Positions 25,439 to 49,588 of a stretch of DNA of 64,000 bases are shown piece by piece; position 1 is the first letter of the stretch, and every line of letters starts with the position of its first letter. The stretch covers positions 1-64,000 of IMG/VR virus record IMGVR_UViG_3300034816_000006; one strand, given 5' to 3'. The notes under the pieces are model-generated. The model saw nothing but the letters and a program-made list of their open reading frames with translations, had not been told where the DNA came from and ran no database searches. A program made the translations under genes and the position numbers. The DNA is from a virus.

Positions 25439-26608
25439 CTAGAACGGACTACTCTCCGCCGACCCGTTGGTCAGCTGCTTGGGTTCATCGGTCTCGGGTG
25501 CCACCACGTGCAATGTCGGCTCGTATTCCTCGATCGTCACGGTCTCCTTGCGAGCCATCTTGCCGAGCCGCTCGACCTCACCGAACACCGCTTTCTTGGT
25601 CGCTGCGAACTGGCCTCGCTTCACGAGCGGCTTAACGACGCGCTCGAACTGCGCCTGTGACGCAACCATCTCCACGACCTTGTCCGCTACGTCGCGGCCG
25701 AGTTCCGGCATCGCAGCGACGACGGCATGCACCGTTGGGCCGTCGTACTCGCGGTCGCCCAGTTTCGCATGTGGGCCGAACATGCGGCCGTTGCGAAGGG
25801 GAATTGGGCGCTCGGCCGCTCGAGCGTACAGCGCGGCGCTCAGTCGCGTCTGCACCGTCTTGATCCGCTGCAACAGGTCGTAGGCGTCGGCTGCATCCTC
25901 GTCGTTACCGAACGGGATCATTGACTCGACGCGCATCGCGATCGCGCCACCGCCGGCCTCCTCGGCGAGACGCCTCTGCTCGGGACACGAGATGAACGCG
26001 TGGCAATACTTGCAGTGCTTGCCCGTGACCAGTTCGCGCGAGGTCGATGTCATCATCTCGCGTAACCGCGCCGCGTGGACATCGAGGTCGAACACACACA
26101 ACGTCGCCACGTCGGCCGGTTTCCACGACGCGCCGAGGTAGACGATTGCAACGGTGACCTCGTCACGACCCGAGGCGCGGGCAACCGCAAGTGCTCCGGT
26201 GGCAAGCTGCGGATTCAGCGCGGCCGACGTCACGTCTTCAAAACCCTTGTAGTCGACGACCAGCACGCGGTTCTCGCCGTATACGATGAGGTCGATCGTC
26301 ATCGGGATCTCGAACGGCCGCAGCCCGGAGTAGTCACGCCAGGCGATGTGGCCCAACGCGCGGGCCGTGTCGTCGCTGACGTCGTAGGCCATTGCGCATT
26401 CCGCGGCCATGACATCGCCCGGCTCCAGAAGCTTGCGAACCTGCCACGGCAGATCCTCGTGCGCACCAAGAACCGCGGCTGCCTCCGCATCCCCGTGTCG
26501 GTCGTTGCCAGCTTCGGCGTAGTCCGATCGGTAGTCGTGCTGCTCAAGGTGCGCCGAACCTGGGCAGGCGAGCACGCGCTCGACGGAGGATGCGGAGGGG
26601 CGGTTCAT
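25439..26608 (-). CDS. PD-(D/E)XK nuclease, RecB/Cas4-like
   Basis: 389 residues. PSASSVERVLACPGSAHLE at the start is typical of AddB/Cas4-type or DUF2800 phage nucleases. VLVVDYKGFE near 118 supplies the D-x-K active site with an upstream Asp, and GKHCKYCHAFISCPEQ near 200 gives the Cys that with Cys15 could hold an iron-sulfur cluster. It is the likely exonuclease partner of the RecT gene two genes downstream, as in RecE/RecT pairs. Confidence 0.8.
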   Translation of the reverse strand: MNRPSASSVERVLACPGSAHLEQHDYRSDYAEAGNDRHGDAEAAAVLGAHEDLPWQVRKLLEPGDVMAAECAMAYDVSDDTARALGHIAWRDYSGLRPFEIPMTIDLIVYGENRVLVVDYKGFEDVTSAALNPQLATGALAVARASGRDEVTVAIVYLGASWKPADVATLCVFDLDVHAARLREMMTSTSRELVTGKHCKYCHAFISCPEQRRLAEEAGGGAIAMRVESMIPFGNDEDAADAYDLLQRIKTVQTRLSAALYARAAERPIPLRNGRMFGPHAKLGDREYDGPTVHAVVAAMPELGRDVADKVVEMVASQAQFERVVKPLVKRGQFAATKKAVFGEVERLGKMARKETVTIEEYEPTLHVVAPETDEPKQLTNGSAESSPF

Positions 26609-26802: not shown

Positions 26803-27032
26803 GGTCTTAGTTCCGTTTCCTCGATGCGCGCCTTGGGGCCATCGTCGTGCGAGTCAACGTAGCGAACCCAGCCGACCGAGCGACCGTAGTCGCGCTCCGT
26901 CCAGACGTAGCCATAGTCGGCGTAGAGCGCCTTGAATTCCTCGACTTGCCGATCGGCACCTTCGCGTGTCGAGTGCACGGTGATCATGTCGTTGACATGA
27001 CGGTCGTGGCAGATGACGACGTAGACCTTCAC
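26799..27032 (-). CDS. Small unknown protein, 77 aa
   Basis: 77 residues starting KVYVVICHDRHVNDMITVHS, then a helix and WTERDYGR. This plan occurs in small phage proteins beside recombination genes. Coupled to RecT by ATGA. Function unknown. Confidence 0.65.
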   Translation of the reverse strand: MKVYVVICHDRHVNDMITVHSTREGADRQVEEFKALYADYGYVWTERDYGRSVGWVRYVDSHDDGPKARIEETELRP

Positions 27033-27886
27033 GCTGTCTCACCCGTGCCTGTGTCGGACGAGTCGACGGAGCTCGTTGGCGTCGTCGCTGCGACCGACGA
27101 CGAATCGCCTGATGTAGGGCGTTTCTTGATCTCCGCGACCCGTGCCTTGTACTTGGCATTGATCGCCTCGTAGGCCGGGTGACCAGGGCGCAGGCCGCGC
27201 TTCGCGAAGCGACCGGCGATCTCCCTGCATGACTCGATCGTCTGAGCGTTTTCGAGCTGACCGATTTCCTCGTAGTCGGACGCGCTGAACGGCGGCGGCG
27301 TCGGCTGGGCATCGACAAACTCGGCGTCGATGGCGTCGACATGAACAGGACGCGGAGAATCGTCGCGCTCGCCGACCTCGTCGGCTGTGAACACCCCCGC
27401 AAGGATGTCCGAGTACACGTCGCGAGCGAGCTCCGACTTCGCGCGAGACGCCAGCATCGCCCGCGGGAACGTGCGCCAGTTGTCCTTCTGGTGCAGCGCG
27501 GCGACCTTGGCCATCTCGATGGTCCAGGTACACTTCTGCTCGGGTTCGCCGCGTCGCTTCGTCACATAGGTGACGCTCTTGTCTGTTCCCTCGCCGAGTC
27601 GACGGAAGTACTCGGCCTTGCCGCTGCCGAGTACAACCGCAACCATCGCATCCGCGCTCATCACGGGTTTGCCGTTGATGACCGAGAACGAGCGCAGCGA
27701 AGCCATCGGCGCGAGGCCCAGCTCCTGGCCCGCCATGATCTGCATCATGACCTCGGGAACCTTGTTGCGGAGCGCCTCGGGGAGCAACCCGGACTTGGCG
27801 ATGCGCTCGGACAGTGTCACGACCTCATCGAGCGTACGGGGGGCGATGATCGCGGGCTGGCGAACCAGTGCGGTCTCGTCGCTCAT
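27029..27886 (-). CDS. recT: RecT-family single-strand annealing protein
   Basis: 285 residues. RecT core: SGLLPEALRNKVPEVMMQIM, ELGLAPMASLRSF, VINGKPVMSADAMVAVV, MLASRAKSELARDVYSDIL. The last ~100 residues are Ser/Thr/Pro-rich and disordered. RecT anneals complementary single strands and promotes strand invasion for phage recombination. It sits with a RecB-like nuclease downstream and a probable single-strand binding protein upstream. Confidence 0.9.
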   Translation of the reverse strand: MSDETALVRQPAIIAPRTLDEVVTLSERIAKSGLLPEALRNKVPEVMMQIMAGQELGLAPMASLRSFSVINGKPVMSADAMVAVVLGSGKAEYFRRLGEGTDKSVTYVTKRRGEPEQKCTWTIEMAKVAALHQKDNWRTFPRAMLASRAKSELARDVYSDILAGVFTADEVGERDDSPRPVHVDAIDAEFVDAQPTPPPFSASDYEEIGQLENAQTIESCREIAGRFAKRGLRPGHPAYEAINAKYKARVAEIKKRPTSGDSSSVAATTPTSSVDSSDTGTGETA

Positions 27887-30490: not shown

Positions 30491-30673
30491 TCAGCAGATC
30501 AGTTGTGATGTGTCGCAGTCGCGACACGTGCAGGTACCGAATACACAAGTGATGCAGGTCAGCGGTTCGGCGACCGACGGCTTGGCGCCGCCGACGACGA
30601 CGCGGAACTCGGGTCCGTCGAGCATGCGGATGGTCTCGGCGTTGAGCCAGAGCTTGGTCTTGTGGCGCTTCAT
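30491..30673 (-). CDS. Lanthipeptide-like RiPP precursor
   Basis: 60 residues from ATG 30673 with AGGAG 7 bases before. The leader KTKLWLNAETIRMLD...VVVGG matches the class I lanthipeptide leader plan (K-L-x-L-x-x-E-T-I-R-x-L, ending in Gly-Gly). The core after GG (about residues 30-60) has six Cys (40, 43, 48, 50, 53, 60) and seven Ser/Thr, with CITCVFGTCTCRDC and a final Cys. This is what thioether-bridged peptides look like. No lanthionine synthetase is in the window, so host enzymes may modify it. Directly upstream is a small lipoprotein. No other family fits this small gene as well. Confidence 0.6.
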   Translation of the reverse strand: MKRHKTKLWLNAETIRMLDGPEFRVVVGGAKPSVAEPLTCITCVFGTCTCRDCDTSQLIC

Positions 30674-30683
30674 CTGGAGACTC

Positions 30684-31022
30684 CTAGGTAGACCCGCAGT
30701 GAACTTCGTCAACCACCACGCTGCCATCATCGGCCGTGTGATAGCGGACGTGGCAGTACAACGTCGCGTGGTGCGATCCGAATGAGACCGACACCTCGCA
30801 CAGCATGCCGCCTGCCGCGTCGCCGCACGCGACGCGATCTACGGAATCAGGATGGTACTCCGCGCGCACATCGGCGACCGACGCGTTGCTCGAGGCCGCA
30901 ATCGGGTCGCCATCGCCGCCGCATGATGGAAAGCACGTCTCGGCTTGTGCAGTCGAGTCGACCTTGGGCTCCGTCACGCCGCATGCAGTCATCAGAACAA
31001 TCATCGCAACAATCTTCTTCAT
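30684..31022 (-). CDS. Small lipoprotein beside the RiPP-like gene
   Basis: 112 residues. Lipoprotein signal KKIVAMIVLMTAC (Cys14) and a mature domain with several Cys (AETCFPSCGGDGD, RVACGDAAGG, MLCEVSV, LYCHVRY, EVHCGS). It lies 10 bases upstream of the lanthipeptide-like gene in the same transcript. Immunity proteins of lanthipeptide systems are often lipoproteins, so an immunity role is a plausible inference; a superinfection-exclusion lipoprotein is the alternative. Confidence 0.7.
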   Translation of the reverse strand: MKKIVAMIVLMTACGVTEPKVDSTAQAETCFPSCGGDGDPIAASSNASVADVRAEYHPDSVDRVACGDAAGGMLCEVSVSFGSHHATLYCHVRYHTADDGSVVVDEVHCGST

Positions 31023-38692: not shown

Positions 38693-39255
38693 CCGCCTAT
38701 AGCTGCATCGTAGCCGACCCGCCATGGGCGCCGCGCGACAAGCTGCCCGGCAAGACTCGCGGCGCGGCCAAGCAGTACGACGTGATGCGGACCAGCGACA
38801 TCATGTGCTTTCTCGTCGACCGCAAGATCAGCGTCGCCGACAACGCGATCTTGTTCCTCTGGCGCCTTGCCTCCATGCAGCAAGACGCGCTCGACGTCGT
38901 CAATGCGTGGGGGTTCGAGGTCAAGAGCGAGGTCGTGTGGCGCAAGCTGACCAAGCATGGCCGGCCGCACTTCGGCATGGGCCGCTATGTCCGCAACGGG
39001 CACGAGGTCTGCCTGATCGCAGCCCGCGGCCGCGCGACCTCGCTGATCACGAGCCACTCGGTGCGGTCGGTGTTCGATGCCGTGGCGCCGAGCAACTCCA
39101 AGGGGCGGGCGATCCATAGCCAGAAGCCAGAGGAGTTCTGGACCGAGATCGTCGAGCCGCTGACCACCGGATACGGGATCGAACTGTTCGCACGGCGTCG
39201 CCGGTTTGGCTGGGATGCCATCGGCGACCAACTGCCAGCGCTCGAGGCCGCATGA
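38689..39255 (+). CDS. MT-A70 family adenine-N6 methyltransferase
   Basis: 188 residues. DPPW at residues 10-13 is the catalytic motif; the ILFLWRLASMQQDAL, WGFEVKSEVVWRKL, GHEVCLIAARG and IHSQKPEEFW segments match MT-A70 phage DNA methylases. It adds a methyl group to adenine N6 using S-adenosylmethionine, probably protecting phage DNA from restriction or marking it. No cognate restriction enzyme is beside it. Confidence 0.9.
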   Translation: MTAYSCIVADPPWAPRDKLPGKTRGAAKQYDVMRTSDIMCFLVDRKISVADNAILFLWRLASMQQDALDVVNAWGFEVKSEVVWRKLTKHGRPHFGMGRYVRNGHEVCLIAARGRATSLITSHSVRSVFDAVAPSNSKGRAIHSQKPEEFWTEIVEPLTTGYGIELFARRRRFGWDAIGDQLPALEAA

Positions 39256-39413
39256 GTACCCTCGATCGCACACACGCCAGCATCCTGCTCAACCCGGACA
39301 CCGCGTCGCTCAAGCGCATCGCGTGGGCATTCGGCTGCGCCAAGAAGGGCAGCGACGAGGAGCGACAACTCGAGGCATTGCTGCGCGAGAAGCTGGCCAA
39401 GGAGGCCGCATGA
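39252..39413 (+). CDS. Small helical protein, 53 aa
   Basis: 53 residues from ATG 39252, overlaps previous stop and next start by 4 bases. LNPDTASLKRIAWAFGCAKKG and a charged C-terminus. Unknown. Confidence 0.65.
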   Translation: MSTLDRTHASILLNPDTASLKRIAWAFGCAKKGSDEERQLEALLREKLAKEAA

Positions 39414-40591
39414 CCCACACATCAATCGTCGTCATCACGATCGTCCTGGCGATTTCCGCACTGCTGCTGTTCGGCCCGACTCCACCCCCGAAAGGACTGA
39501 CCTTGGACATCCGAATCCCACGCGCCGACCTGGCCCGCGGCCTGCGCCTCGCCTCGTCGGTGGCCGCGAAGAAACCGACGCTGCCAATCCTGGCCGACGT
39601 GCTGCTGCGCGCGAGCAAGGAACTCAGCATTGCAGCGACCGACCTTGCCGTCTCGTTGACCGCCGAGATGGCATGCGTCGTCACCAAACCAGGATCGATC
39701 GCGCTCAACGCCGACGATCTGCGCCGGTTCGTGGCGTCAGCGAGCGGCGACGAGGTCACGATCAAGGCGGATGGCGCGTGGGCCGACGTCCGCTGCGGCA
39801 AGGCGAAGTACCGGATCGCCGGGCACCAGGCACAGGACTTCCCGAAGATCCCGGAACCGGCGAAGGGCTGCGAGTGGGTCGAGACCGACGCGGACGAGCT
39901 CTGCGATTTGCTCTCGCGTGCCAGCTACGCGGTATCGCAAGACGAGTCACGGCAGGCGCTGTGCGGCGTGATGCTGGACTACGACGGCGAGACGCTCACC
40001 GTGCTGAGCGCTGACAGCCCGCGCGCGGTCCTGATCTCGCGGAAAATCCCGTTCCCGGCGCTGCCGCGGCGCATCTCGCTATGCGTCCGTGGCGCGACCG
40101 AGATCTCCAGGCTTCTCGAGGACGCGGGCAAGTGCCGCGTCGCGGTCGACGGCAAGCGCATGCACACAACCGTCGATGGTGAGACGATCAGCGCCGGGCT
40201 GCTCGACTTCGAGTGCCCAGCATGGGAGCGGCACTTGCCGAAGACAGGACTCGCGAGCGCGACCATGGACCGCGATCGCCTGCTCGAAGCGTTGAAGCGC
40301 GTTGCCTCGTTGGCCAGCGATTATCACGGCGTCGGCATGCGTTCGACGCCGACCGGGCTGTCGCTCACCGTCAAGGACAAGGACGGCGAAGAGATGAGCG
40401 ACGAGATCGAGTGCGAGATCAAGGGCGAGATCCTGATCGGTGCGCACCCGAAGCACCTGATCGACACGCTGACTCGGATGGTCGGCGAGCCGATCACGAT
40501 GCGCACGATCGGCGCGACTGACCCGATCGTTTTCGTAGACCACGGCGACGCTGGATACACCGGCGTCGTCATGCCGATGAGGATGGACTGA
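39410..40591 (+). CDS. dnaN: DNA polymerase III sliding clamp (beta subunit), phage-type
   Basis: 393 residues from ATG 39410, or 362 from TTG 39503, which has AAAGGA 7 bases upstream and begins at LDIRIPRADLARGLRL, the normal clamp start. Three beta-clamp domains: VAAKKPTLPILADVLLRA, DFPKIPEP near 150, SRASYAVSQDESRQALCGVM and the final TGVVMPMRM. The ring tethers polymerases to DNA. The longer frame adds a hydrophobic segment (IVVITIVLAISALLLF) that is not part of clamps. A phage-encoded clamp without a polymerase is uncommon; it may recruit host Pol III. Confidence 0.9.
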   Translation: MTHTSIVVITIVLAISALLLFGPTPPPKGLTLDIRIPRADLARGLRLASSVAAKKPTLPILADVLLRASKELSIAATDLAVSLTAEMACVVTKPGSIALNADDLRRFVASASGDEVTIKADGAWADVRCGKAKYRIAGHQAQDFPKIPEPAKGCEWVETDADELCDLLSRASYAVSQDESRQALCGVMLDYDGETLTVLSADSPRAVLISRKIPFPALPRRISLCVRGATEISRLLEDAGKCRVAVDGKRMHTTVDGETISAGLLDFECPAWERHLPKTGLASATMDRDRLLEALKRVASLASDYHGVGMRSTPTGLSLTVKDKDGEEMSDEIECEIKGEILIGAHPKHLIDTLTRMVGEPITMRTIGATDPIVFVDHGDAGYTGVVMPMRMD

Positions 40592-49197: not shown

Positions 49198-49475
49198 ACG
49201 CCTACCACCGCCGCATCGGCCATGTCACCGCGCCCGCCGAGGTCGTCGACCCGGAGATGCGCATGTCGCGACTGCGCCAAATCTGCAGGACCTGGCGATC
49301 GTGCTTGGACATGGAGATTGGCAATTTCACTGACCACGATCCGGTCCGCGATCGCTGGACTCCGTCACGTCACACCGTTACGACGACTGAATCGACCTCC
49401 CACCCCTCCCCGCGCACCATGACCAGATGCAACGCCGCAAGATCGCGCTTCGCCCCGAGACCATCCGCCACCTGA
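49194..49475 (+). CDS. Small unknown protein, 93 aa
   Basis: 93 residues from ATG 49194, which overlaps the previous stop by 4 bases. Begins NAYHRRIGHVTAPAEVVDPE; the last third is Arg/Ser/Pro-rich and overlaps the next small gene by 49 bases in another frame, so the C-terminus may be unreal. Confidence 0.5.
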   Translation: MNAYHRRIGHVTAPAEVVDPEMRMSRLRQICRTWRSCLDMEIGNFTDHDPVRDRWTPSRHTVTTTESTSHPSPRTMTRCNAARSRFAPRPSAT

Positions 49476-49588
49476 CCGACCTCGGCGCTGTCGTCGGTGG
49501 GCGGCCCACGAGTTGGCCGTACTGCCTGGGCGCGGAAGCGGTTCAGACCACGCAGACGATCAAGTGCCCGACGGCGGCGTGCGGGTGA
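49427..49588 (+). CDS. Second lanthipeptide-like RiPP precursor
   Basis: 53 residues from ATG 49427. Leader RRKIALRPETIRHLTDLGAVVGG closely follows the class I lanthipeptide leader (K-I-x-L-x-x-E-T-I-R-x-L-T ending in GG) and matches the leader of the precursor at 30491. Core RPTSWPYC...TTQTIKCPTAAC-Gly has three Cys (33, 47, 52) and several Thr/Ser. Shorter core than the other precursor. It starts inside the end of another ORF in a different frame and lacks a clear ribosome binding site, so expression is less certain. Its TGA overlaps the next GTG. Confidence 0.5.
   Translation: MQRRKIALRPETIRHLTDLGAVVGGRPTSWPYCLGAEAVQTTQTIKCPTAACG

Follow-up and report, generated by a model that had tools for sequence, protein, structure and literature searches.

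Predicted stand-alone precursors of the class I lanthipeptide type in a soil siphovirus and in other phages

Precursor genes and their genomic setting

The window, that is, the whole 64,000-nucleotide stretch of viral DNA that was analysed, carries on its minus strand a short gene, here called precursor A, which is translated as MKRHKTKLWLNAETIRMLDGPEFRVVVGGAKPSVAEPLTCITCVFGTCTCRDCDTSQLIC* (Table 1). This reading frame is real: its translation and coordinates are exact, its ATG is preceded by a ribosome-binding-like AGGAG and its codon score is positive (coding-like). An alternative in-frame ATG at 30730 would lengthen the product to 79 amino acids; the 60-residue form is favoured because AGGAG lies 7 nt before the ATG at 30673. 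The original prediction of a 60-residue gene with six Cys and seven Ser/Thr in its core is thus confirmed, the same counts being found in the 31-residue core. Taken alone, precursor A matches nothing in NCBIfam, Pfam or PHROGs, and protein searches of viral contigs, genome contigs and phage and plasmid collections returned no close relatives of the 60-residue protein.

Table 1. Coordinates of the precursor genes and associated features (window positions unless another contig is named)
Feature	Position	Strand	Remarks
Exonuclease, PD-(D/E)XK	25439..26608	(-)	Early operon; homologue in relative G001 directly adjoins two precursors
RecT-like annealing protein	27029..27886	(-)	Early operon; marker for finding syntenic phages
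Precursor A (60 aa)	30491..30673	(-)	Leader residues 1-29, ending VVVGG; core residues 30-60 (6 Cys, 7 Ser/Thr)
Core-coding part of precursor A: AKPSVAEPLTCITCVFGTCTCRDCDTSQLIC	30494..30586	(-)	Translation
Leader-coding part of precursor A	30587..30673	(-)	LxLxxETIRxL...GG motif, from alignments
AGGAG, ribosome-binding-like	30681..30685	(-)	7 nt upstream of precursor A ATG; read from sequence
Lipoprotein-like gene (112 aa), Cys-containing	30684..31022	(-)	Upstream of precursor A, co-directional, same early operon
Small Cys-containing gene, N-terminal membrane segment	31100-31339	(-)	Upstream of precursor A
Precursor B (53 aa), leader MQRRKIALRPETIRHLTDLGAVVGG and core RPTSWPYCLGAEAVQTTQTIKCPTAACG	49427..49588	(+)	Leader profile match
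Leader-only ORF, contig G014	115819-115872	(-)	Stops before any core
Leader-only ORF, contig G021	10191-10328	(-)	Stops before any core

The record from which the window is taken (G000) comprises 76,195 bases with 65% GC and is described as a soil phage and siphovirus. Its gene set includes an integrase, RecT, an exonuclease, a prim-pol, TerL, a portal protein and a tape-measure protein; the phage is probably temperate, since an integrase is present. The remaining 12.2 kb beyond the window hold structural-type genes only, as far as seen. No end repeat was found in the record, and its tape-measure gene continues past both ends, which suggests that the genome is circular or permuted. Precursor A belongs to a minus-strand run of early genes leading to the RecT-like protein and the exonuclease, in agreement with the predicted early-operon location. 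The two Cys-containing genes upstream of it are possible candidate partners.

A second gene of the same kind, precursor B, lies on the opposite strand. It has no clear ribosome site in the sequence, its translation may be coupled to an overlapping upstream ORF, and it has no NCBIfam match. The list of features first drawn up for this window did not contain it. The window also encodes a DNA polymerase III beta clamp (39206-40591, plus strand) with all three Pfam domains, and holds no tRNA gene. A host search with TerL gave no match among genome contigs; a myxobacterium-like, high-GC host is only a guess.

Leader profiles and relatives in other phages

When the window phage is left out of the leader profiles, precursor A is still recovered with E values of 1e-8 to 3e-4. 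A profile made from five leaders of other phages detects it at E 1.7e-7 and the full leave-out profile at E 1.4e-8 (21,852 six-frame segments); with the same leave-out profile, none of 20,000 shuffled versions of the precursor A peptide did better than E 1.5. The pattern-found members of the family were in part chosen by a motif taken from precursor A, and the test was therefore repeated without such sequences, whereupon precursor A was still recovered at E 4e-6 to 3e-4. On the basis of these leave-one-out tests precursor A is judged to stand above chance. Precursor B was found by a profile from other phages at E 2.1e-7, again among 21,852 six-frame segments. A leader profile therefore detects genes of this type that annotation libraries miss.

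Pattern scans of the viral collection combined with the leader profile yielded a family of 25 leader-plus-core ORFs in 14 IMG/VR contigs; the best match in a reversed-sequence control had E 0.96. The syntenic relative G001 (IMGVR_UViG_3300015245_000002) has early, replication and structural modules in common with the window phage, about 50-76% identity in the early and replication genes, and a 77-base end repeat. Beside its exonuclease gene lie two adjacent ORFs with a leader like that of precursor A and unrelated Cys-rich cores, and a third precursor ORF is found at a separate place. G009 (IMGVR_UViG_3300005615_000008), a relative of the window phage by TerL, has one precursor ORF; none was found by the leader profile in G003, G008 and G010, so that the distribution is patchy.

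Several contigs carry more than one precursor: six in G014, three each in G013 and G001, and two each in G000 and G022, with tandem paralogues of differing cores in G001 and G014. The G014 contig (IMGVR_UViG_3300019874_000002; 118.7 kb) encodes a DNA polymerase, a helicase and a baseplate. Its GC content of 0.49 is unlike the 65% of the window phage, and two adjacent pairs occur among its six precursors. TerL, portal or tape-measure genes are present in the carriers G015, G016, G020, G021, G022 and G023, and a DNA primase in G018. Two of the contigs, G017 and G019, are short fragments. The carrier status of G015 is doubtful, since its precursor could belong to flanking host DNA; a radical-SAM-like frame adjoining the portal gene of this contig scored below the cut-off and was treated as unrelated. 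The leader-only ORFs of G014 and G021 may be broken copies or deliberate decoys. The consensus leader has no match in isolated phages or plasmids. We found no report of phage-borne orphan precursors of this kind in the open-licence literature, and their novelty is provisional because the search covered open-licence papers only.

Core composition and class of the leader

Cys accounts for 12.7% and Ser/Thr for 20.5% of the residues in the family cores, compared with a Cys content of 0.3% in the family leaders and 1.1% in long ORFs taken as background. A Ser or Thr stands two to five residues before 92 of the 114 family Cys, against 65 in shuffles, an arrangement expected of class I LanA cores. 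The number of Cys per core ranges from one to ten, and both count and spacing vary while the leader is kept. In the ortholog pair G016/G017, where differences are few, the leader gives pS 0.22 and pN 0.03 (pN/pS 0.14) and the core pS 0.12 and pN 0.13 (pN/pS about 1.2). Judged from these sequences, the leader appears to be held for an enzyme and the core to be free, which is the pattern of a precursor; a conserved leader with a hypervariable core, as looked for in RiPP precursors, is likewise found across the family. The CITC, CTC and CRDC motifs in the core of precursor A could instead be read as CxxC/CxC motifs of a small Cys-rich protein that binds metal and stays unmodified. We regard this as very improbable and rejected zinc binding because Cys spacing is not conserved across the family; Cys number varies as well although the leader is conserved, and precursor A has no zinc-domain match.

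In many class I LanAs of Bacteroidetes the leader has an LxLxKx5L motif and a terminal GG, and is often cleaved by a C39 protease (Walker et al., 2020; PMC7268733). By its motif, the phage leader would be of this Bacteroidetes type and not of the FxLD type of nisin. Both precursors of the window have GG and the LxLx-X-x5L spacing, with Ile replacing the first Leu in precursor B. The Lys of the motif is Ala in precursor A and Pro in precursor B, and is kept in five of the 25 family members. Neither precursor A nor B matches the curated class I leader model in NCBIfam. Several phage relatives score 12-22 bits against that model (NF038153, lant_leader_L1a; cut-off 22); one precursor of G001 aligns with positions 6-32 of its 32, below the cut-off, and one ORF of G022 lies at the cut-off (22.9 bits in the genome search, 21.7 as a whole protein). 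The lanthipeptide-type reading of precursor A consequently rests on its relatives, since precursor A by itself matches nothing. The prediction of a class I leader is thus upheld through these relatives and not through precursor A, which scores nothing and lacks the motif Lys; the missing hit to leader models, which had been named in advance as evidence against the idea, is outweighed by the matches of the relatives to NF038153.

Three relatives also match TIGR04149, a radical-SAM-modified leader, below threshold, and the enzyme class to which the leader belongs is uncertain for this reason. GG-ended leader families are common to several RiPP classes (PMC7268733), and the precursors might serve another leader-reading enzyme, a radical SAM or other RRE enzyme, with rings that are not lanthionines. 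This seems distinctly unlikely to us: NF038153 scores higher than TIGR04149 in two of the three relatives (the exception, G013a, has 14.6 bits for TIGR04149 and 12.6 for NF038153), its matches are commoner among the relatives, and the cores are rich in Cys and Ser/Thr with lanthionine-like spacing.

The phage ORFs resemble class I LanAs with an NF038153-type leader in the spacing of the leader motif, in leader length, in the GG/GA end, in the Cys/Ser/Thr core and in the presence of several different cores per genome. They differ in that no LanB, LanC or transporter was found in the carriers, and precursor A further differs in falling below the model threshold and in lacking the Lys.

Modification enzymes and possible roles of the products

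No LanB N- or C-domain, LanM dehydratase or C39 peptidase was found above cut-off in the 14 contigs, a result of little weight for the fragment contigs. PF04738, PF14028 and PF13575 gave no match in the phage contigs, where the PF04738 control responded weakly and the controls for the other two models not at all, and LanC (PF05147) was absent from the eight contigs tested. Because these controls were silent or weak, absence in the window phage was also judged by the lack of any unexplained ORF of LanB size in G000. The claim of an orphan lanthipeptide-like precursor is supported: related phages retain such a gene, its leader conserved and its core variable, and none of the enzymes searched for was found. 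Overall, the original prediction is partly supported, and its extent is wider than stated, a second precursor and a phage family having been missed.

Since these phages lack the ring-making enzymes that were searched for, they probably borrow, or jam, those of the host bacterium. The simplest reading of genes that supply the substrate only, and the most likely one, is that host enzymes modify the peptides in trans. The leader would be read by a LanB-type dehydratase and a LanC cyclase of the host, which would install thioether rings in the Cys/Ser/Thr core; a GG-cutting C39 transporter or a protease of the host would then release the product, which may help the phage in infection or lysogeny, for instance by excluding other phages or rival cells. 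We infer this modification, export and purpose from the genes at hand, and give a little better than an even chance to the view that precursors A and B are stand-alone class I lanthipeptide-type precursors, modified in trans by host enzymes, whose product serves the phage.

The main rival is that leader-bearing peptides flood the cell as decoys; by keeping the host LanB/LanC or transporter busy, they would block host lanthipeptides, some of them anti-phage. Streptomyces makes lanthipeptides that act against phages inside the cell (reviewed in PMC12360287); as lanthipeptides at work within the cell during phage-host conflict they would parallel the phage peptides, and they differ in being encoded by host clusters with their own enzymes and in acting against the phage. 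A decoy would also suit the G016/G017 pair, in which the conserved part is the leader, as well as the position of precursor A in an early operon and the two leader-only ORFs, although these may be broken copies. Nevertheless, nearly all cores are Cys-rich with Ser/Thr ahead of the Cys, a build for which a decoy would have no need, and multiple differing cores per phage fit a product better. We thus lean towards a product and hold the decoy to be unlikely.

It is quite improbable that the genes are cargo, i.e. host precursor genes that were acquired and drift without use to the phage. Their patchy presence, varying positions and truncated copies in G014 and G021 would agree with such an origin, but unrelated phages carry them in intact form on 14 contigs, several phages have multiple copies, and the leader is under purifying selection in the single testable pair (G016/G017).

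A precedent for substrates made apart from their enzyme is offered by the prochlorosins, class II lanthipeptides of cyanobacteria, with many precursors, a common leader, diverse cores and a distant enzyme acting in trans (PMC7268733); they differ in their Nif11-type leader, LanM enzyme and location on a bacterial chromosome rather than in a phage. Sublancin 168 is a comparable case: prophage SPbeta encodes this modified peptide, which arms the lysogen (PMC8270828). It is, however, an S-glycopeptide, and SPbeta encodes the entire pathway with exporter and immunity. Modified peptides already known from phages, sublancin among them, bring their own pathway, whereas here the substrate occurs alone, repeatedly, in multiple copies and with differing cores. 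The chances seem evenly balanced that unrelated phages of several lineages keep enzyme-less precursor sets with fast-changing cores and use the host LanB/LanC as a common workshop for phage ring peptides, or jam an anti-phage lanthipeptide system. Substrate-only phages make the distinction between exploitation and blocking of host lanthipeptide enzymes directly testable.
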